From Parvibaculum sp. (GTDB taxonomy: Bacteria; Pseudomonadota; Alphaproteobacteria; Parvibaculales; Parvibaculaceae): a DNA stretch of 64,000 nucleotides. Under the pieces are notes generated by a model. It did not search any database, was not told the origin of the DNA, and was given only the letters and a program-made list of their open reading frames with translations. The first letter of the stretch is position 1; each line of letters starts with the position of its first letter. Positions 16,603 through 45,764 of the stretch are shown piece after piece. The stretch spans positions 1-64,000 of the forward strand of contig NZ_JAUYUS010000120.1 of NCBI RefSeq assembly GCF_030694575.1, written 5' to 3'. A program made the position numbers and the translations under genes.

Positions 16603-17948
16603 ACCGCTTTCGAGTGCCGCGCTTCGCCTCTGGCCAGATAGGTGTCGAACACGGCGCAGACGGCGCGCACCAGCGGCTTGCCCTCCTCCGTCATGGCGAG
16701 GCGGTGGCCGTTACGGGTGACGAGGCCGTCGGCTTCGAGCGGCGAGAGAAGTTCTAGTTCGGCTTCGAAGGCATCCGGCGCCGCGCCGTGATGGGCCGCG
16801 ACCTCGTCGAGATCGACCCCCATGTCGCACATCAGCCGCTCGATGACGGCGCGGCGGAGACCGTCTTCGTCCGTGACGGCGATGCCGCGCGTCACCGGCA
16901 ATTCGCCCGCGCGGACGCACGCCTTGTAGCGGCCGATATCGAGTTCGTTCGCGACATAACCCTGCGGCAGCGCGCCGATGGCGGAGGCGCCGAGGCCGAT
17001 CAGCACCGGCGCGTCGTCGGTCGTGTAGCCCTGGAAGTTGCGGTGGAGCGTGCCGGCGCCGCAGGCCCGCGCCATCGGATCGTCCGGCAGCGCGAAATGA
17101 TCGAGGCCGATGGCGACATAGCCGCGCTCCGCGAGCCGCGCCGAGGCCGCCTCGTATTGCGCCCAGCGTTCGGCGATGCCGGGGAGCGAGGCTTCCGGGA
17201 TGAGGCGCTGATGCGGCTTCATCCACGGCACATGCGCATAGCCGAACAGCGCGATGCGCGCGGGCCGCAGCGCCGCCGCCTTGTCCAGCGTGTCGAGAAG
17301 GCTTTCCACCGTTTGCCAGGGAAGCCCGTAGCAGAGATCCATGTTGATCGCGGAGACGCCCGCCGCGCGAAGCCATTCGATGACGCGCGCCGTCACCTCA
17401 TAGGGCTGGATGCGGTTGATCGCCTGCTGCACGCGCGGATCGAAATCCTGCACGCCGACGGACGCGCGCGTGACGCCCGCCCGCGCCATTGCGGCGACAT
17501 AGGCCTCGTCCGCCGTGCGCGGATCGAGCTCGACCGCGATGTCGGCGTCCAACTCGACATTGTAGTATTCGCGGAGCACCTCAAGCGTCCGCGCGAGATC
17601 GGCGGGCCTCAGGAGCGTCGGGCTGCCGCCGCCGAAATGGATGTGGTCGACCTTCATCCGCGAGGGGAGAGCATGCGCAACGAGACGCGCCTCGGCGAGC
17701 AGCGCATCGAGATAGTCGGCGACGGGCGCGTATTTCTTCGTCGCCTTGGTGTGGCAGCCGCAGAACCAGCACATCTCGGCGCAATAGGCGATGTGGAGAT
17801 AGAGCGAGACGGGAAGCGACGGATCGAGCGCGCCGAGCCAGCGCGCATGACACGCGGCATCGACCGCGGGCCCGAAATGCGGCGCTGTCGGATAGGATGT
17901 GTATCGCGGCACCCTGAGATCGTACCGCTCGATGAGATCGTGGCGCAT
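16599..17948 (-). CDS. hemN: Oxygen-independent coproporphyrinogen III oxidase
   Basis: 449-residue radical-SAM enzyme performing the HemF reaction without oxygen. The [4Fe-4S] motif is Cys56-x3-Cys60-x2-Cys63 with the extra HemN cysteine Cys65 (YCAEMCWFCGCH). RVPRYTSYPTAPHF near the N-terminus and the GGGSPT SAM-binding motif distinguish true HemN from HemW-like proteins. The length is normal. No FNR/Anr box (TTGAT-N4-ATCAA) is visible upstream. It follows a lipoprotein gene by 71 bp on the same strand. Confidence 0.95.
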   Translation of the reverse strand: MRHDLIERYDLRVPRYTSYPTAPHFGPAVDAACHARWLGALDPSLPVSLYLHIAYCAEMCWFCGCHTKATKKYAPVADYLDALLAEARLVAHALPSRMKVDHIHFGGGSPTLLRPADLARTLEVLREYYNVELDADIAVELDPRTADEAYVAAMARAGVTRASVGVQDFDPRVQQAINRIQPYEVTARVIEWLRAAGVSAINMDLCYGLPWQTVESLLDTLDKAAALRPARIALFGYAHVPWMKPHQRLIPEASLPGIAERWAQYEAASARLAERGYVAIGLDHFALPDDPMARACGAGTLHRNFQGYTTDDAPVLIGLGASAIGALPQGYVANELDIGRYKACVRAGELPVTRGIAVTDEDGLRRAVIERLMCDMGVDLDEVAAHHGAAPDAFEAELELLSPLEADGLVTRNGHRLAMTEEGKPLVRAVCAVFDTYLARGEARHSKAV

Positions 17949-18019
17949 GGGGAAAGGCTAGGCGCGGGCCCCGCTCCGCACTACCCGCGCAAATGTCGCA
18001 GGGAAATTTGTCGCAGCCG

Positions 18020-18547
18020 CTATTCTTCCTGCGCGGCGACGGATTTCAGCATCGCCTGAAGCGTGCCCTTCGGCGCGAAGTCCCAGCCGCCGCCATACAT
18101 GATGTCGTCGACGAGCCAACGGTCGCCTTCGCGGACGAGCAGCACGCGATCGGTCCATTGCACCGGCTCCTCCGCCTCATGCGCGAGCAGCACCTCGCAT
18201 TGCACGACTTGCTCCCTGCCCTCGCAGGTGCCGATTTCATAGGCGGTCGGCCCTTCGAACAGGGAGGAGAAGATGTCGCCCTGCAGATAGGGCGGCTCTT
18301 CGTTGTTCACGCGCGCGGTGTGGCGGCTCTCCGCCTCGGCGGCCTGCGCGAGCAAGCTGTCAAGATCGGGCGAGATGACGGGACGGAGACGCAGACGCAA
18401 ATCCTCGTCCGGCACGCCGCCCTGCTTCTCGCTGAGCGCGATGTCGTAGAAGACCCGCGCGGCCCCCGCCGCATCGCCCTCGGGGCCTGCGTCGCCGCAA
18501 CCGGCGAGAGGGAGGACGAGAAGGAGGGAGAGGATGAGTGTGCGCAT
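18020..18547 (-). CDS. Small lipoprotein of unknown function
   Basis: 175-residue predicted lipoprotein: signal MRTLILSLLLVLPLAGCGD with lipobox LAGC (Cys17). The mature region starts with an acidic/Gly/Ala linker and then an alpha+beta sequence with four or so hydrophobic strands (YEIGTCEGREQVVQCEVLLAHEAEEPVQWTDRVLLVREGDRWLVDDIMYGG) typical of small NTF2-like export proteins. I do not recognise a specific family. The ATG overlaps the cca stop as TGATG, so it is translationally coupled to cca. Confidence 0.78.
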   Translation of the reverse strand: MRTLILSLLLVLPLAGCGDAGPEGDAAGAARVFYDIALSEKQGGVPDEDLRLRLRPVISPDLDSLLAQAAEAESRHTARVNNEEPPYLQGDIFSSLFEGPTAYEIGTCEGREQVVQCEVLLAHEAEEPVQWTDRVLLVREGDRWLVDDIMYGGGWDFAPKGTLQAMLKSVAAQEE

Positions 18548-19800
18548 CAATACACCGTTGCCTGAACGATCGCCTTCAGCCGCTCGATGATCGAGAATTC
18601 GTCGTCGATGAAATCCGAGTCGATCCACCATTCCTCGACTTCGTCGCGGATGCGGCCGATCTGCGGGCCTTCGGGGACGCCGGCGGCCTTGATCATCTCG
18701 CCGGTGAGCGGCAGGACCGGCTTTTCCCAGCTGTCCGCCATCGCCAGCATGGCGCGCCATTGGAAGGCATTGTGGCCGCGCTTGTCGTCCGCCCAGCCGA
18801 GCGAAACGCGATCCTTGAAAAGCTGCAGGCCCATCAGATAGAGCGCGCGGCGCACCTCGCGCATGGAGAGGTAGCAGACGATCTTCGTGCTGTCGGTGAG
18901 CATGGCGGCAAGGCGGTCGCGGTCCCGGTTGGAAAGCTTCAGCCGCGCGGCCAGCGCCTCGATGCCCGGTTTGTCGAGATCGAGCATGGCGCCGAGACGG
19001 AGGATGGGGTCCACCTTCTGCACGAAGAGCTGCTGCGTCTCGATCTCGACCAGCTTCTCGAAACGGTCGAGGCGGCTCGCCTCCGGCAAGACGAGCTGGA
19101 GGATGCCCGCCGCCGCCATCTGGCGGAAGGCCGCGGCCGCATTGTCGGCGGAGGCGGTCTTCAGAAGTTCGTCGCGGACGCGCTCGCCCGACAATTGCCG
19201 TAAGCCCTCGCGTTCCTCGGCGCAGGCGCGGAGCCCCGCCTCGTCCGGCTCGCCCTTGCCGTACCAGGCATGAAGACGGAAGAAACGGAGGATACGCAGA
19301 TAATCCTCGCGGATGCGCTCATGCGCGTCGCCGATGAAGCGGATGCGGCGGGCTTTCAGGTCCGCAAGGCCGCCCAGCGGATCGTGGATGGTGCCGTCGG
19401 CGTCGCAGTAGAGCGCGTTCATCGTGAAGTCGCGGCGCCCGGCATCGGCGGCCCAGTCCCCCGTGAAGGCGACGTCGGCGCGGCGGCCATCCGTCTTCAC
19501 ATCGACGCGGAGCGTGGTGATCTCGAAATGGCGGGTGGGCGTGACGGCGGTGATCGTGCCGTGGTCCATGCCGGTCGGCACGACCTTGATACCCTTCGCT
19601 TCGAGGAGCGCCTTCGCCGCTTCCGGCGTCTCTGTGGTGGCGATGTCGATGTCGGAAACGGGCTCGCCCATGAGCGCATTGCGGACCGCCCCGCCGACGA
19701 AACGTGCAGCCCCGCCCTTCGCGGCAAGCGCCGCCATGACGGCGCGTGTGTCGGCTTCGTTGAGCCACGGGGCGCGGGCAAGTTCCTTGTCGGCAGTCAT
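18547..19800 (-). CDS. cca: CCA tRNA nucleotidyltransferase
   Basis: 417-residue class II nucleotidyltransferase adding or repairing the 3' CCA of tRNAs. The head-domain motif GGAVRNALMG and the metal-binding DIDIATTETPE are clear, followed by RRDFTMNALYCDADGTIHDPLGG and the neck motif ERIREDYLRILRFFRLHAWYG. No C-terminal HD phosphohydrolase motif is evident. A poly(A)-polymerase role is less likely because the enzyme has the short alphaproteobacterial CCA layout. The start chosen is ATG 19800. A longer frame to 19854 lacks support. Confidence 0.92.
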   Translation of the reverse strand: MTADKELARAPWLNEADTRAVMAALAAKGGAARFVGGAVRNALMGEPVSDIDIATTETPEAAKALLEAKGIKVVPTGMDHGTITAVTPTRHFEITTLRVDVKTDGRRADVAFTGDWAADAGRRDFTMNALYCDADGTIHDPLGGLADLKARRIRFIGDAHERIREDYLRILRFFRLHAWYGKGEPDEAGLRACAEEREGLRQLSGERVRDELLKTASADNAAAAFRQMAAAGILQLVLPEASRLDRFEKLVEIETQQLFVQKVDPILRLGAMLDLDKPGIEALAARLKLSNRDRDRLAAMLTDSTKIVCYLSMREVRRALYLMGLQLFKDRVSLGWADDKRGHNAFQWRAMLAMADSWEKPVLPLTGEMIKAAGVPEGPQIGRIRDEVEEWWIDSDFIDDEFSIIERLKAIVQATVY

Positions 19801-38496: not shown

Positions 38497-39546
38497 ATGC
38501 CAGTCACAGGCACTCAAACCGATGCCGCGCTGAGCTTGTCTCGCGCCCTCATGAACACGTCCCACCTTCCCCTGCTTCTCTTCGACGGCGATCTGCGGGT
38601 GGTGAGCGCGACGCCGTCCTTCTGCGCCAACTTCGATCTCGCCTCCGACCAGACCAGCGGCCGCACTCTGTCCGAACTCGGAGCAGGCGAATGGAACATT
38701 CCGCAGTTGCACACCCTTCTGGAGAACGCGCTTTCGGACGAATCGGAAATGGGAGACTACGAAACCGACCTGCTGCGCCCCGGAGCCGAGCCGAGGCGGC
38801 TGATACTGCATGTCCAGAACCTCATCTACGAAGACAAGCAGAATGCCCGGATTTTGCTCACCATCGACGACGTGACCGATGCGCGGCGCACGGAGCAAAT
38901 GAACGTGGCGCTCCTTCTGGAGAAGGACGACCTGCTGCGGGAGCGCGCCGTTCTGTTGCAGGAAATGCAGCATCGGGTCGCCAACAGCCTGCAGATCATC
39001 GCAAGCGTTCTTCTGCTCAAGGCACGCACGGTGAAATCGGAAGAAACCCGGCTCCATTTGCAGGATGCGCATGACCGCGTCATGTCGGTTGCCGCCGTGC
39101 AGCAACATCTGCAGGCCAGCACAGGCGATGTCGAGGTCGGTCCTTACCTGGTGAAGCTGTGCGAGAGCCTTGCTTCGTCGATGATCCGGGAATCGCGTCC
39201 GCTCGCGCTCAAGGTTCATTCCGACGACGCGACGATCAGTTCGCAGAAGGCCGTCAGCCTCGGCCTGATCGTCACCGAACTGGTCATCAACGCCTTGAAA
39301 CACGCATTCCCGGACAGCCGGGGCGGGCTCGTCGACGTAAGCTATCGTGTCGACCGGCAGGACTGGAGCTTGACGGTCACCGACAACGGGATCGGAAGGC
39401 ATTCCGCTTCTCCGGACGCCAAGGTCGGCCTCGGCACGAGCATCGTCGAAGCGCTCGCCAAGCAACTGAACGCCCATATCGTTATTTCGGAGGCATCCCC
39501 GGGAGCGAAAATCTCGGTGATAAGCGAAGCCGCTGCCGTTCAATAG
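38497..39546 (+). CDS. PAS-containing HisKA_2 sensor histidine kinase
   Basis: 349-residue soluble kinase with no membrane helices. An N-terminal PAS-like sensor (about 22-130, LPLLLFDGDLRVVSATPSFCANFDL) precedes the HisKA_2 phosphoacceptor domain with His159 (QEMQHRVANSLQIIASVLLLKA) and a HATPase domain (N-box ELVINALKHAF, G1 VTDNGIG, G2 GLGTSIV). HisKA_2 kinases commonly feed alphaproteobacterial general-stress or light/redox pathways. No response regulator is adjacent; the RR-Hpt-RR trio lies 2.5 kb downstream. ATG 38497 has AAGGAAGG upstream. Confidence 0.87.
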   Translation: MPVTGTQTDAALSLSRALMNTSHLPLLLFDGDLRVVSATPSFCANFDLASDQTSGRTLSELGAGEWNIPQLHTLLENALSDESEMGDYETDLLRPGAEPRRLILHVQNLIYEDKQNARILLTIDDVTDARRTEQMNVALLLEKDDLLRERAVLLQEMQHRVANSLQIIASVLLLKARTVKSEETRLHLQDAHDRVMSVAAVQQHLQASTGDVEVGPYLVKLCESLASSMIRESRPLALKVHSDDATISSQKAVSLGLIVTELVINALKHAFPDSRGGLVDVSYRVDRQDWSLTVTDNGIGRHSASPDAKVGLGTSIVEALAKQLNAHIVISEASPGAKISVISEAAAVQ

Positions 39547-39573: not shown

Positions 39574-40050
39574 TCACCACAAGTCAGGCGCGTTGAGCCC
39601 CTCGGTAACTTCGAGAATCCGTGCCCGCGTGGAAGCGGATGTGCCTTCAGGCAATGCGCCGGCGGCAAAGAAGCCGCTTTCGGCGATTTCCGGCGACCGG
39701 CGCGGCACGCGCTCGTAGGTGCCATACGCGACGACATAAAGCGCGACGTGATCCGATTTGAATTCCCGGAAATTGGCGTAGAGGCCCGCCAGCCTGACTT
39801 CTCCTCTCAGGATCACGCCCACCTCCTCGTCGAGCTCGCGGCGGAGCGAGGTGAGCATGGTTTCGCCGCGCTCCACCCCGCCGCCCGGCAGATACCAGCC
39901 CGGAATATAGGTATGGCGAATGAGAAGAACGCGGCCTTCTGCGTCGAAAACCATGCCCCTCACGCCGGCCGTCAGCGGCCGTCTCAACCGCCAGTAGAGG
40001 CGGAGGAGCGGACGGACGGTCATCCAGAGAAGGGCGCGCGGGTGAGGCAT
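39574..40050 (-). CDS. Nudix hydrolase
   Basis: 158-residue Nudix protein. The box GGGVERGETMLTSLRRELDEEVGV contains the GX5EX7RE and EEVG elements, though the pattern is RRELDEEVG. The front LLIRHTYIPGWYLPGG and N-terminal RPLTAGVRGMVFDAEGRVLL are typical of small Nudix enzymes with nucleotide or sugar-nucleotide substrates; the substrate is not predicted. ATG 40050 is used; a TTG start at 40089 is possible, with a strong GGGGGAGGG directly against it. Divergent from the flagellin-like gene. Confidence 0.84.
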   Translation of the reverse strand: MPHPRALLWMTVRPLLRLYWRLRRPLTAGVRGMVFDAEGRVLLIRHTYIPGWYLPGGGVERGETMLTSLRRELDEEVGVILRGEVRLAGLYANFREFKSDHVALYVVAYGTYERVPRRSPEIAESGFFAAGALPEGTSASTRARILEVTEGLNAPDLW

Positions 40051-40151
40051 CGGCGCGAGCTTACCGTACCCGCCTTTAGATGTCGTCAACCCTCCCCCTT
40101 TAGTCTCGGGCGCGACGGCGCCGGGCGCGCCGGGGTTTGGACAATCGGGTA

Positions 40152-40943
40152 ATGGGCATTCTGTCGCGACTGAGGGGCAAGGCGAAACTGGAGCCGCCGC
40201 CCGCCGAGGAAACGCCGTCGGTGACGCCGGCGGCGCTTCAGCGCGCGCTGCGCGCCACGGCCCAGGCCTCCGGTTCCCTCACGGCCGCCGAACTCGGCCA
40301 GCGGATCGCAACCGCGCTCAGCACGATAGAGACCTCGGTGCTGGCAATCGATGCGGTCACGGAGCGGCTGCGCGAAGCGGCGGACCTCGTGGCGGATGCC
40401 GGCCGGAACGACGATGTCGGCCGCCGCGCGCTTCTCGCGGGCCGCTACGACGACCTCCGCTCCGAAATCGACGCCATCGTCGGATCGGCGTCGCACAACC
40501 GCATCAACCTCATCTCCGGCCGCCGCATCGGCGGCCAGCATATGACATTCGACATCGCGCTCGACGATGACGGTCGCTCGGGTATCGCGATCCAGGTCGT
40601 AAACCTCACGACCGGCGAAGGCGGCCTTGCGCTCTCGCCGCCCCGCGAGGCTTTCGCGGACGATGCCGAAATCGCCGCCATCTCCGGCGAGATCGAGACC
40701 GCGCGGACAAGGGCCGCCGCCGTCAGCGAGCGTTTCGCCGACCATGCGGCGCTGATCTCCGACCGGCTCTCGCGGCTCCGCGACATGGCCGGGCCGCGCC
40801 CCATCGACAGCCACCTTCCCACCGGCGCCGACGCCATGGATATCCCCGAGGCCGGCGAATACGAACTCGGCATGGCCGAAGTCGAGGACAAGCTCCGCGC
40901 GCTGGCCGACCGCCTCAACAGCCGGACCGGCGGCGAAAGCTGA
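40152..40943 (+). CDS. Flagellin-like protein, orphan
   Basis: 263-residue protein whose middle segment (about 58-125: STIETSVLAIDAVTERLREAAD...DDLRSEIDAIVGSASHNRINLISG) follows the flagellin N-terminal D0/D1 helix pattern, ending in the characteristic Asn-phi-Asn-phi-Leu/hook sequence. Unlike real flagellins it starts with MGILSRLRGKAKLEPPP rather than the MAxxINTN export start, is only half the usual size and ends in an amphipathic helix (DKLRALADRLNSRTG). No flagellar genes lie in the window. It could be an assembly or accessory protein. Function unknown. Confidence 0.6.
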   Translation: MGILSRLRGKAKLEPPPAEETPSVTPAALQRALRATAQASGSLTAAELGQRIATALSTIETSVLAIDAVTERLREAADLVADAGRNDDVGRRALLAGRYDDLRSEIDAIVGSASHNRINLISGRRIGGQHMTFDIALDDDGRSGIAIQVVNLTTGEGGLALSPPREAFADDAEIAAISGEIETARTRAAAVSERFADHAALISDRLSRLRDMAGPRPIDSHLPTGADAMDIPEAGEYELGMAEVEDKLRALADRLNSRTGGES

Positions 40944-40992: not shown

Positions 40993-41865
40993 ATGTCCAC
41001 GCCCGTTTCCCAACAGACCATCGCCTCGACCGGCCCCAATGCCGAACAGATCGACTACTGGAACGGCGATGCCGGCGGCAAATGGGCCCGCAACCAGGAC
41101 CGGCTCGACGCGATGCTGCAGCCTTTCTCGGACGCGGTGCTGAAGCTCGCGGCCGCAAGGCCGGGCGAGCGCGTCCTCGATATCGGCTGCGGCTGCGGCG
41201 CCACGACATTCGAACTCGCGGCGCAAACCGGAAATGCGCTCGGCGTCGATATATCGGCGCCCATGATCGCCCGCGCGCGGGAACGCGCAGCGGCGATGAA
41301 GAGCGCCGCCGGCTTCATGCTGGCCGACGCCGCCACGCATGCCTTCGAGCCCGGCTCGTTCGACCTTCTCGCCTCGCGCTTCGGCATCATGTTTTTCGCG
41401 GATCCCGTCGCGGCCTTCGCGCATCTGCGCAAGGCGCTCGCACCCGGCGGCCGCACGGCCTTCGTCTGCTGGCGTCCCCTGAAGGAGAACCCGTGGTTCG
41501 CCGTGCCGCTCTTCGCCGCTCTCGCCCACGTTCCCGCGCCGGAGCCGGCCGTGCCCGGCGCTCCCGGCCCGTTCGCCTTCGACGACCCGGACCGCTTTCG
41601 CCGTATCCTGACGGAAGCGGGCTACAGCTCCATCGGCATCGAGCCTCACGATGCCCTTCTGTCGATGGGACGGGACGATGACCCCGTGGAAGCGGCGCTC
41701 CGCCAGTCGCTCGAAATCGGCCCGCTCTCGCGGCTCATGGCCGATCTCGGCGACGAACATCGTGCCCGAGCCGCCGATGCTGTGCGCGAGGCGCTCGCCC
41801 GCCACGTTAAGGATGGCCAGGTGATGCTTGGCGGCGCGGTGTGGCTCGTTACAGCGCAGGCTTGA
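40993..41865 (+). CDS. Class I SAM-dependent methyltransferase
   Basis: 290-residue methyltransferase. Motif I is VLDIGCGCGATTFELA (about 61-76), with LGVDISAPMIARARE and FDLLASRFGIMFFADPVAAFAHLRKALAPGGRTAFVCW as motifs II-III. The EQIDYWNGDAGGKWARNQDRLDAMLQPF start is typical of the UbiE/CrtF-like group of alphaproteobacterial proteins annotated only as methyltransferases. AGGAGG precedes the ATG. Acceptor not predictable. Follows the flagellin-like gene by 49 bp; co-expression is possible. Confidence 0.86.
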   Translation: MSTPVSQQTIASTGPNAEQIDYWNGDAGGKWARNQDRLDAMLQPFSDAVLKLAAARPGERVLDIGCGCGATTFELAAQTGNALGVDISAPMIARARERAAAMKSAAGFMLADAATHAFEPGSFDLLASRFGIMFFADPVAAFAHLRKALAPGGRTAFVCWRPLKENPWFAVPLFAALAHVPAPEPAVPGAPGPFAFDDPDRFRRILTEAGYSSIGIEPHDALLSMGRDDDPVEAALRQSLEIGPLSRLMADLGDEHRARAADAVREALARHVKDGQVMLGGAVWLVTAQA

Positions 41866-42040: not shown

Positions 42041-42538
42041 ATGAGCCGTTCTGTATTCAATTCATTGAGCGTTCTCGTTGTCGACGACAGCGCCTATATG
42101 CGTCACCTGCTGATGACGCTTCTGCAGGCGCTCGGCGTGCCGGAAGTGCATGTCGCGGTCGACGGCGACGAGGCATGGGAAATATTTCGCCACCACGAGC
42201 CGGACCTCGTCATCACCGACGCCGCCATGATGCCGGTCGACGGCTTCGACCTCGCCAAGCGGCTTCGCAGCCTCAATGGCCGCGCCCTCGGCACCGTGCC
42301 GATCATCATGATTTCGGGACATACCGACATGGCCTCCGTCGAGCGGGCGCGCGACATCGGCATCACCGAATTCCTCTCCAAGCCGATTTCCGCCCGCGGC
42401 CTCTATGAGCGGCTGATCCAGGTGGTCGACCGGCCGCGCCAGTTCGTCGAAACCCCGACCTATCGCGGTCCCGACAGGCGCCGCCGCGACCGTCCCTTCG
42501 ACGGCGCGGATCGCCGCGGCCCGGTCGAACTCATATAG
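42041..42538 (+). CDS. CheY-like response regulator, first of a trio
   Basis: 165-residue single receiver domain with an extra tail. Acidic pair VDDS (15-16), phosphoacceptor Asp60 (LVITDAAMMP), Thr/Ser switch (MISGH) and Lys114 (LSKP) are intact. The tail carries FVETPTYRGPDRRRRDRP, closely similar to the tail of the third gene, so the two are paralogues. No DNA-binding output domain. Leads a three-gene set with an Hpt-like protein and a second receiver. Confidence 0.9.
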   Translation: MSRSVFNSLSVLVVDDSAYMRHLLMTLLQALGVPEVHVAVDGDEAWEIFRHHEPDLVITDAAMMPVDGFDLAKRLRSLNGRALGTVPIIMISGHTDMASVERARDIGITEFLSKPISARGLYERLIQVVDRPRQFVETPTYRGPDRRRRDRPFDGADRRGPVELI

Positions 42539-42549
42539 GGAGCGCCGCC

Positions 42550-43095
42550 ATGATCGAGCGCAGAAGCACTTCCAGACTGGCGGGGGCCGCCGACGAGAAC
42601 ATTTCGCCGCCGGATGTCCGCTTCGTCCGGGTACCCTCGATTGCCGAACGCAAGCTCGGCGCCGACTACGTGGCGCCCATGCGGCTCGACCCGCGCGTTC
42701 TCGACCAGATGCAGGCCACGATCAAGAGCCTCGAAAGCCGCTACGCCGAAGCGCTCAAGGCGCAGGCCGCCATGCTCCGGGTTCTCGTCGAACCGGCCTG
42801 CAAGGGCGACGCGGAGGCGCGCGGCCGCATCTACTCCATCGTTCACGATATGCGCGGTCTCGCCGGCACGTTCGGCCATCCGATGCTGGGCCGCTTCGCG
42901 GACTCGCTCTGCGGATATCTCGAGCAAAGCGAGATCGTCGAGTGGAAAGAAGGCGCCGTCATCCGCTTTCACATCGACGCCATCTACGACGCGCTTGAAA
43001 ACCCGGCCGCCGACCCGACCATCACGATGGAAACGCTCAACGCGCTCGAACGCCTCGTGACGACTGCCGCGAGAAGTCGGAGGCGGATCGGATGA
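42550..43095 (+). CDS. Hpt-domain protein between two receivers
   Basis: 181-residue mostly helical protein. Residues about 75-165 contain IYSIVHDMRGLAGTFGHPMLGRFADSLCGYL, which fits the Hpt phosphotransfer motif (H-x-L/M-K/R-G-x-A-x-x-x-G) with the phosphoacceptor His99. The N-terminal 45 residues are low-complexity. It overlaps the downstream receiver gene start by 4 bp and lies 11 bp after the upstream receiver, so all three are cotranscribed and coupled. It probably relays phosphate between the receivers (inferred). Confidence 0.75.
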   Translation: MIERRSTSRLAGAADENISPPDVRFVRVPSIAERKLGADYVAPMRLDPRVLDQMQATIKSLESRYAEALKAQAAMLRVLVEPACKGDAEARGRIYSIVHDMRGLAGTFGHPMLGRFADSLCGYLEQSEIVEWKEGAVIRFHIDAIYDALENPAADPTITMETLNALERLVTTAARSRRRIG

Positions 43096-43604
43096 GCGGC
43101 GCGCCGACAGGGGCCGACGCGGAATTATTCCGTAAGCTGAAGGTGCTCGTCGTCGACGACAGTGCCGAAATGCGGCGGCTGCTGAAGGCACTGCTCGAAT
43201 CCATGCATGTCGGCGAAATCATCGAAGCGCGCGACGGCGCGAAAGGCCTCGACGCCTTCGCCGCGCACCGCCCCGACATCATCGTCACCGACGGCGCCAT
43301 GCAGCCGATGGACGGCTACGAGATGACGCGCCGGATACGCGCCGCCACCGCCGGCGAAAGCGCCAATCCCGACGTCCCGATCCTGATGATTTCCGGCCAT
43401 GTCGGGCGCGAGAATGTCGTCCATGCCCGCGACCAGGGCGTCACCGACTATCTGCCCAAGCCGCTCTCGGCGTCGGTCCTTTATGAAGCGATCGTCGCCG
43501 CGGTCTCGAAGCCGATCCATTTCGTCGAGAAGGCCGGTTATCGCGGGCCTTCGCCGAAGCGAACGCTGGAAGCCCGCCGGCCGGACGCCGATCCGCTGTC
43601 CTGA
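43092..43604 (+). CDS. CheY-like response regulator, third of a trio
   Basis: 170-residue receiver protein with no output domain. Conserved VVDDSAEMRR (acidic pair), phosphoacceptor Asp67 (IIVTDGAMQP), MISGH switch and Lys123 (LPKP). The C-terminal FVEKAGYRGPSPKR resembles the tail FVETPTYRGPDRRR of the first receiver, indicating duplication of the receiver gene around the Hpt gene. Ends 2 bp before the convergent hydrolase stop. Confidence 0.9.
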   Translation: MSGAPTGADAELFRKLKVLVVDDSAEMRRLLKALLESMHVGEIIEARDGAKGLDAFAAHRPDIIVTDGAMQPMDGYEMTRRIRAATAGESANPDVPILMISGHVGRENVVHARDQGVTDYLPKPLSASVLYEAIVAAVSKPIHFVEKAGYRGPSPKRTLEARRPDADPLS

Positions 43605-44630: not shown

Positions 44631-45764
44631 ATGACGAAGATCACGACCAATATTACGGTGGACGCGGCTTATGAAGCCGTAGCCCCCGACGATTTCCCCG
44701 CAATGATGGAAGTGGACCGCTACGGCAAGCGCTCGACCGCCTTCGACAAGATCATCTCGGCGACCCACGATCATTTCTGGGACCCGATGGACAAGAAGTA
44801 CATCGACTTCTCCGTGCCCTTCGACATGGAAAACGAATACCTGATCGACCCCGAGCAGAACACCGACCTCAAGACCGCCGTCAAGGACAAGCTCGACGAA
44901 AAGCAGAAGATCAAGCTCGTCAATCTCGACGTGCAGTGGGGCCTCTCCTCCATCCTTCACGGCGAAGCAGGCGCGCTGGCCTTGTCCGCGAGCCTCTGCC
45001 ACATCCTCAAAGATCCGGGCGCGCAGGAATACGCCGCCAACCAGACGCGCGAGGAAGCCCGCCACGTCGCCGGCTTCTCCAACTACATCAAGGCCCGCTG
45101 GGGCAAGCCCGTGCCCGTCGGCCCGGCGCTCGGCAACGTGCTGACCGAACTCGTCAACACGCCGCTCGTCTGGAAGAAGCTCGTCGGCATGCAGATGCTG
45201 GTCGAAGGCCTTGCGATGGGCGCTTTCGCCTCATTCTACAAGTGGGGCCGCGATCCGCTGATGGTGAAGCTGATGCAGCTCACCATGACGGACGAAGCCT
45301 TCCATCACAAGTTCGGCAAGATCTGGGCGGACCGCACCATTCCGAACCTGAAGGCGGAAGAGCGCGACGCGATCGAGGACTGGGCCTGGGAAGTTTTCCA
45401 GATCCTGCTCTTCAACCTCGGAAGCCCTGAGCAGAAGAAGCACATCTATGCCGCGGTCGGCCTCGACTGGGAATGGGTGCAGGGCGCGTTCATGGAAGCG
45501 CTGACGGACGTGCATATCCGCGAAAGCATGCAGGAATCCTCCAACATCTTCCGTGTGCTTATCAAAACGCTCCTGAAAGCCGGCATCATCACGGGCCGCA
45601 CGGCGCCGAACTACGCCGCCTTCATCGACATGAAGGAACTCTACGGCGAGAGCGACCGCATGATCGGCGACGACATCGCGGAAGAAGGCATCAAATACCT
45701 TCTCCAGCTCAACGGTCAGGGCAACCGCTCCTACTCGCTCGACAAGATGTCCGCCGCCGAATAA
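44631..45764 (+). CDS. Orphan diiron-carboxylate (ferritin-like) protein
   Basis: 377-residue soluble protein with a ferritin/R2-like four-helix core. The metal ligands can be assigned: Glu112 (LHGEAGA), Glu142 and His145 (EEARH), Glu192 (LVEGLAM), Glu222 and His225 (TMTDEAFHHK), which is the four-Glu/two-His diiron set. It is not ribonucleotide reductase R2, R2lox or a known monooxygenase by context; there is no reductase or electron-transfer partner. AGGAGG gives a very strong start at 44631, and a strong terminator follows. Expected to be well expressed. Substrate unknown. Confidence 0.72.
   Translation: MTKITTNITVDAAYEAVAPDDFPAMMEVDRYGKRSTAFDKIISATHDHFWDPMDKKYIDFSVPFDMENEYLIDPEQNTDLKTAVKDKLDEKQKIKLVNLDVQWGLSSILHGEAGALALSASLCHILKDPGAQEYAANQTREEARHVAGFSNYIKARWGKPVPVGPALGNVLTELVNTPLVWKKLVGMQMLVEGLAMGAFASFYKWGRDPLMVKLMQLTMTDEAFHHKFGKIWADRTIPNLKAEERDAIEDWAWEVFQILLFNLGSPEQKKHIYAAVGLDWEWVQGAFMEALTDVHIRESMQESSNIFRVLIKTLLKAGIITGRTAPNYAAFIDMKELYGESDRMIGDDIAEEGIKYLLQLNGQGNRSYSLDKMSAAE

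Follow-up and report, generated by a model that had tools for sequence, protein, structure and literature searches.

Flagellin is an exported building block, whose D0 domain bears the signal for export and makes up the core of the filament. Besides the alphaproteobacterial flagellins, three described systems come closest to the locus considered here. FljJ of Caulobacter is presented as a flagellin paralogue with a regulatory role, to which FlbT binds; it is itself an exported flagellin and sits beside the hook (PMC7591256). HP1076 of H. pylori is a small, membrane-associated protein with a flagellin D1-like fold that binds FliS and, as a D1-like protein, is able to compete with flagellin for the chaperone; its null mutant had no flagellation or motility defect, and it is described there as restricted to H. 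pylori and related species/epsilonproteobacteria (PMC7248283). The Cle proteins of Caulobacter carry the tandem motif [Y/F]XGP[D/E][R/K]R in a tail after the receiver domain, which binds c-di-GMP, and the flagellar motor is an interaction partner of two of them, CleA and CleD (PMC5677366).

The gene under study, P0001, lies in a window of 64,000 nucleotides from Parvibaculum sp. (contig NZ_JAUYUS010000120.1, positions 1 to 64,000) and very probably encodes a conserved flagellin relative that has been reduced to D1, with D0 gone from both ends. Its reading frame (40152..40943, + strand) is genuine, opening with the ATG at 40152 and encoding 263 aa, as supported by translation, orthologues, and profile and model matches. 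A start of the form M-G/K/R-hydrophobic is common to 35 of the 36 orthologues written out (their starts being the nearest ATG, picked by script), and the exception is a broken copy. That copy (L007:1-774 / L030, genome G037) is a Parvibaculum orthologue interrupted by a stop codon in frame, at the edge of its contig, attributable to either an assembly error or a recent loss.

In residues 1–39 of P0001 (40152..40268, +), a short start and a variable linker occupy the position that the N-terminal D0 helix has in flagellin, residues 40–213 (40269..40790, +) form the flagellin D1 core, as assigned from the model secondary structure, the FljL alignment, and the family profile, and residues 214–263 (40791..40940, +) comprise an LPTGAD linker and a predicted helix (241–260) where flagellin has its C-terminal D0 helix. 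The core consists of helices 45–85 and 89–115, the NLISG turn, strands 131–136 and 144–149, and the C-side helix 171–213. A further helix is predicted at 26–37 in the AlphaFold2 model, which has pLDDT values below 50 at residues 1–24 and 28–43. An N-terminal membrane helix, comparable to the membrane association of HP1076, was considered and rejected, as in a simple amphipathic-helix test the hydrophobic moment beat shuffles at the 0.1 level in none of 24 family members.

A sequence-only reading of this DNA had recognized the flagellin helix pattern, up to the NLISG motif, in the middle third of the protein. The pattern is real, whereas its extent was understated: D1 is more complete than claimed, spanning residues 40–213 and including the beta hairpin and C-side helix, and only D0 is missing. 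Against P0001 alone, Pfam Flagellin_N aligned residues 25–123 to model positions 40–136 (E 0.0026, below the curated cut-off), NCBIfam LafA matched at E 2.1e-4 (far below its cut-off), and a single-protein phmmer search of the PDB returned no flagellin. Profile A1 (21 orthologues) found flagellins at E 0.0057, and profile A4 (24 more diverse members), searched against the PDB, found Caulobacter FljN at E 1.1e-9, in an alignment that takes in the N-side helices, the hairpin, and the C-side helix; the best 49 of 55 rows from the A4 search were all named flagellin or flagella. The AlphaFold2 model of P0001 is of low confidence (pLDDT 55.5), and VIA-align superposed residues 40–213 of this low-confidence model on FljL 56–221 with a Z of 15.1 and an rmsd of 2.9 over 159 residues, all 50 rows listed being flagellin-containing entries. 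An AlphaFold model of the core only reached a pLDDT of 66.6, and Foldseek with that model gave E 8.9e-3 at best, with flagellins filling the best 12 rows. Because the AlphaFold models are weak and the Foldseek E-values poor, the structural claim leans on the VIA Z-scores and the profile. Both checks proposed at the outset, namely structure prediction against flagellin D1 and profile searches that could have reduced the likeness to generic helix composition, pointed to flagellin, the former through the FljL superposition of a low-confidence model and the latter through the family profile match to FljN. Flagellin_N was matched at E ≤0.01 by 4 of 24 family members (Pfam), which would explain such genes staying unnamed.

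The export N-terminus had been reported as missing, which we confirmed: no part of P0001 aligned to Flagellin_N positions 1–39. Similarly, Flagellin_C had no match in P0001 at E up to 1, and none of the 24 family members matched it at 0.01 (all Pfam). The two true flagellins of the same genome (L095:16286-17404 and 17597-18778) match both Flagellin_N and Flagellin_C. In each of these two flagellins, the match to the D1 profile is split into two pieces by an insert. Since D0 is absent from both ends, P0001 would not be expected to undergo export as a flagellin or to polymerise, and we infer that it is a cytoplasmic, non-exported protein.

Named relatives of P0001 come from Parvibaculum species and related MAGs, with 55%–73% identity in the best tblastn segment (8 loci). 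Some match to P0001 at E ≤0.001 was detected in 37 of the 40 genomes of the order, and strong orthologues (E <1e-25) in 35 of the 40, distributed as 26/27 genomes in the genus, 7/7 in g3, 2/2 in g5, 0/2 in g2, and 0/2 in g4. In one g4 genome (G011), an open frame of 243 aa encodes a diverged protein without D0, and G002, a genome of the same family (100% complete, FlhA present), had no match to P0001 at 0.001. Across the class, 133 of 385 genomes matched A4 at 1e-6, and D0-less members were found, with a patchy distribution over families f1, f4, f91, f116, and f121, in at least 18 of the 385 (G000, G003, G006, G009, G011, G042, G129, G154, G159, G177, G239, G257, G262, G275, G330, G345, G347, and G407), D0-less status being judged from the reading frames and the remaining frames read being true flagellins; this count is a lower bound, as the places listed were capped, up to seven candidates were scored per genome, and some frames were left out (e.g., G085:C3, 245 aa). 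Two more D0-less members within the class were found in G757 (f183) and G677 (f180), and D0-less relatives occur in six Alphaproteobacteria families beyond that of P0001. At the level of the phylum, 18 of 398 genomes matched at 1e-12, and the sole match outside the class (G663) was a full flagellin. One f91 genome, G239, carries two D0-less flagellin-like genes, L055 (contig C170) and L071 (contig C243). Among the matches listed from the open PMC literature, no description of the D0-less family turned up, which is weak evidence of absence.

In a tree based on 163 D1 columns, 30 D0-less proteins (classed by reading their sequences) and 20 flagellins were split by one branch with support of 99/90; the tree is unrooted, its alignment follows the D0-less profile, several of its branches are long, and the flagellins sampled are those that the searches returned. 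Ratios of dN/dS were 0.05–0.26 in 13 of 14 pairs, with distant pairs near synonymous saturation (dS 1.9–4.0 in f4), and the fourteenth pair (G257/G345) was saturated (pS 0.80, pN 0.18); for G042/G177, the ratio was 0.24 at a dS of 2.4. The D0-less family is under purifying selection, and its interpretation as pseudogenes was rejected by the dN/dS values. These data suggest that the family is a flagellin D1 relative outside the filament, and, within the reach of sequence data, the earlier proposal of a flagellin paralogue that has been repurposed or is regulatory gains support from the reduction to D1, the conservation, the purifying selection, and the separate branch.

P0001 had further been described as an orphan without flagellar context, which is accurate for the window and wrong for the genome as a whole, since flagellar genes, when sought elsewhere in the assembly, were found on contigs C13 and C74, and a CheY-like gene with a Cle motif lies two genes downstream of P0001. 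Contig C13 encodes the two flagellins, FlgK, an FlgL-like gene (a name inferred from its position beside FlgK and its flagellin domains), and, adjoining the true flagellins, FlaF (E 1.3e-29) and FlbT (E 4.3e-43). Contig C74 encodes a flagellar-type ATPase, FliJ, FlhA, a sigma-54 activator, FliN, FliG, FliF, FlgD, and FliK. In a close relative assembled as a single contig of 3,914,745 bases (G013), which we take to be P. lavamentivorans DS-1, the region at 2370–2394 kb is collinear with 36–64 kb of the window and that at 2355–2368 kb with the C74 cluster, and the flagellar cluster lies ~24 kb from the flagellin-like gene. Based on this collinearity and on the end of the window's contig at 65.9 kb, the C74 cluster probably lies just beyond it. 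In the 17 genomes that carry both the gene and flhA on the same contig, the gap between them was 29–98 kb (median 53 kb), and it was 32–66 kb in the five of these that are single-contig genomes (G013, G006, G009, G347, and G159), although these observations are non-independent because the genomes share an inherited order.

Adjacent to P0001 are a divergent Nudix gene (39574..40089, − strand; NUDIX E 4.9e-17) and, 49 bp downstream on the same strand, a class I SAM methyltransferase gene (40993..41865, +; generic class I), both neighbours having been named in the sequence-only reading and now confirmed by family matches. The methyltransferase gene is followed by a CheY-like receiver with a C-terminal arginine-rich YRGPDRR (Cle-like; 42041..42538, +; Response_reg E 1.3e-25 plus the motif), an Hpt-like protein gene (42550..43095, +; Hpt E 0.0014, below cut-off), and, overlapping the latter by 4 bases, a second CheY-like receiver with a degenerate arginine-rich tail (43092..43604, +; Response_reg E 1.8e-24). 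The first of these receivers, in its tight cluster with the Hpt-like gene and the second receiver, is a candidate c-di-GMP-responsive regulator. In its tail, the first repeat is exact (YRGPDRR) and the second degenerate (FDGADRR); both repeats are exact in L094, L079, and L080.

We compared 29 loci by called genes only, and the calls miss genes at some loci (the Nudix gene at L075, and genes at L134 and L155). A related Nudix gene immediately adjoins the flagellin-like gene in 20 of the 29 loci and is one gene off in 2 more, and receiver genes likewise occur nearby in 20. The motif [YF]xGP[DE][RK]R was found in the neighbouring receiver at 16 of the 20 loci having a receiver, and in those 16 alone among 585 called proteins; the exact motif was missing in L097 and in three f121 loci, the f121 form being degenerate. 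No receiver or Hpt genes were detected at the locus in f4 (0/3), f116 (0/3), or f91 (0/2) (short contigs). In the synteny evidence, which covers families other than f91 and f180, the order typical of the genus is Nudix, gene, methyltransferase, receiver, Hpt-like, receiver, and the shorter orders are Nudix, gene, receiver in f121 and Nudix, gene, methyltransferase in f116, where G154 has a 477-aa gene ahead of the Nudix gene and a 377-aa-type gene after the methyltransferase. The gene and the 377-aa gene are kept in f4, with the Nudix gene in 2 of 3 loci, and in G757 the gene adjoins genes found in the wider neighbourhood elsewhere. The 377-aa gene itself (window 44631-45764) is 98.9% identical in G013, is frequently close to the flagellin-like gene in the loci compared and occurs near it in several families, and had no match to Pfam at 1e-4. 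Just upstream, at 38551-39546, a HisKA_2 histidine kinase with a PAS-like part was found, with no relative among the proteins called at the other loci examined.

Our main reading, to which we assign a probability of about 0.4, is that P0001 is a non-exported flagellin mimic that would bind the proteins handling flagellin and, in some lineages, would have a role independent of flagella. The mechanism that we propose for it, in which a soluble flagellin mimic would contact flagellin-handling or signalling partners, is in its specifics rather unlikely. Without D0, P0001 would stay in the cytoplasm and could not build a filament; its D1 surface would contact flagellin handlers (here FlaF and FlbT) or the adjacent Cle-like CheY/Hpt-like module, and the protein could report or buffer the flagellin pool in flagellated cells. 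In lineages without flagella, the same protein would keep a second, flagella-independent partner. The D1 homology, the loss of D0, the 99/90 branch, the purifying selection, the Cle-type neighbours, and the FlaF and FlbT genes of the genome would suggest such a mimic, whereas the missing association with FlhA, four flagella-less drafts, loci without receivers, patchiness, and absence from G002 suggest otherwise. A conserved, probably non-exported D1-only relative beside Cle-type receivers would be either a component so far lacking from the picture of flagellin homeostasis in some Alphaproteobacteria or a rare instance in which a protein of the filament became an adaptor in the cytoplasm.

Alternatively, the D1 fold may have been wholly taken over for a non-flagellar cytoplasmic job, as a scaffold or adaptor, the nearness to flagellar genes being inherited gene order, and this explanation, while short of probable, has to be taken seriously. 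FlhA was present in 221 of the 385 class genomes and in 38 of the 40 genomes of the order, and its presence was not associated with that of the D0-less gene (12/18 D0-less genomes vs. 209/367 others; Fisher p 0.47, with G177, G257, G345, and G407 counted as without FlhA on account of their absence from the rows with matches). Counting as flagellated G330, which has no FlhA match yet has rod and flagellin genes, gives 13/18 (p 0.23). Four drafts of two families, namely G042 (97% complete), G177 (91%), G257 (87%), and G345 (83%), had no FlhA, Flg_bb_rod, or Flagellin_N match, and yet keep the gene, whose frames are open and whose dN is low compared with dS. Since the flagellar genes of G154 span six contigs, chance loss of all such genes in four drafts is unlikely. 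The conservation of relatives in several families, including a few draft genomes without detectable flagella, indicates that the protein probably functions within the cell. In G407 (77% complete), the Flagellin_N match came only from the D0-less gene, and in the third f4 genome, G275, flagellar genes were present (8% contamination). The most widely shared neighbours (the Nudix gene, the 476-477-aa gene, and the 377-aa gene) are also non-flagellar as annotated here. However, flagella are present in most carriers sampled (12 or 13 of the 18 from the class, in addition to the FlhA frequency in the order), Cle-like CheY neighbours occur in f1 and, with a degenerate motif, in f121, and the flagella-less genomes are all drafts, at 83%–97% completeness. 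Because the protein persists under purifying selection, with partly the same neighbours, where no flagellar gene was found, it is possible, though short of probable, that P0001 is an old flagellin relative whose ends for export and polymerisation were lost within the Alphaproteobacteria and which now works, as a cytoplasmic D1-only protein, independently of flagella. Draft genomes with the gene but without flagellar genes make this non-flagellar explanation and the flagellin mimic separable.

That P0001 is an exported minor filament, hook-junction, or cap-associated subunit is improbable. The D1 fold is common to flagellin, and FlgL structures appeared among the lower Foldseek rows, but D0 is missing at both ends, the family profile reached the genome's own FlgL-like protein only at E 0.89, and the gene is kept in genomes without an FlhA match. 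It is still less probable that P0001 is a substrate of the neighbouring methyltransferase, and the earlier suggestion that this enzyme modifies it proved unsupported. Despite the short spacing on one strand and the recurrence of the gene–methyltransferase pair in g1 (13/14 loci), g5 (2/2), and f116 (3/3), 17 of the 29 loci have a related methyltransferase next to the flagellin-like gene and 12 have none there (at one of these, L086, the contig ends just downstream), and the family matches of the enzyme, which are generic class I with the nearest NCBIfam models (DVU_1556-type, BioC, and UbiE) all far below cut-off, give no pointer to a protein substrate. A decaying flagellin remnant or mere generic helix similarity, for which the single-sequence Pfam match below cut-off and the phmmer search without PDB flagellins might be cited, is hardly credible and already contradicted by orthologues with shared neighbours across families, by purifying selection, and by flagellins throughout the best 49 profile rows and the 50 listed structural rows, generic helix similarity being ruled out by the A4 profile, VIA-align, and the 99/90 tree branch.

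FljJ and HP1076 may, by analogy, serve as precedents for P0001 as a flagellin mimic. Like Caulobacter FljK/L/M/N, P0001 has the D1 fold with its NL turn, beta hairpin, and C-side helix; unlike them, it is without D0 helices and has its own N- and C-terminal tails. It further differs from flagellins in lying on the opposite side of the supported branch, its gene being apart from flagellin genes. The likeness to Cle proteins belongs to the neighbouring receiver rather than to P0001, through the [Y/F]XGP[D/E][R/K]R tail motif; unlike them, this receiver has an Hpt-like gene and another receiver as neighbours, and its binding of c-di-GMP or the motor switch is putative. With FljJ, P0001 shares the status of a flagellin paralogue (in FljJ with a role beyond filament building), and its genome also has FlbT and FlaF; FljJ is exported and located next to the hook, whereas P0001 is without D0. 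When the PDB was searched with profile A4 at E ≤10, no HP1076 chain was found, nor was one among the 50 structural rows listed. Both HP1076 and P0001 are small proteins with a flagellin D1-like fold, HP1076 being described as confined to H. pylori and related species/epsilonproteobacteria, whereas the family of P0001 is found in Alphaproteobacteria.
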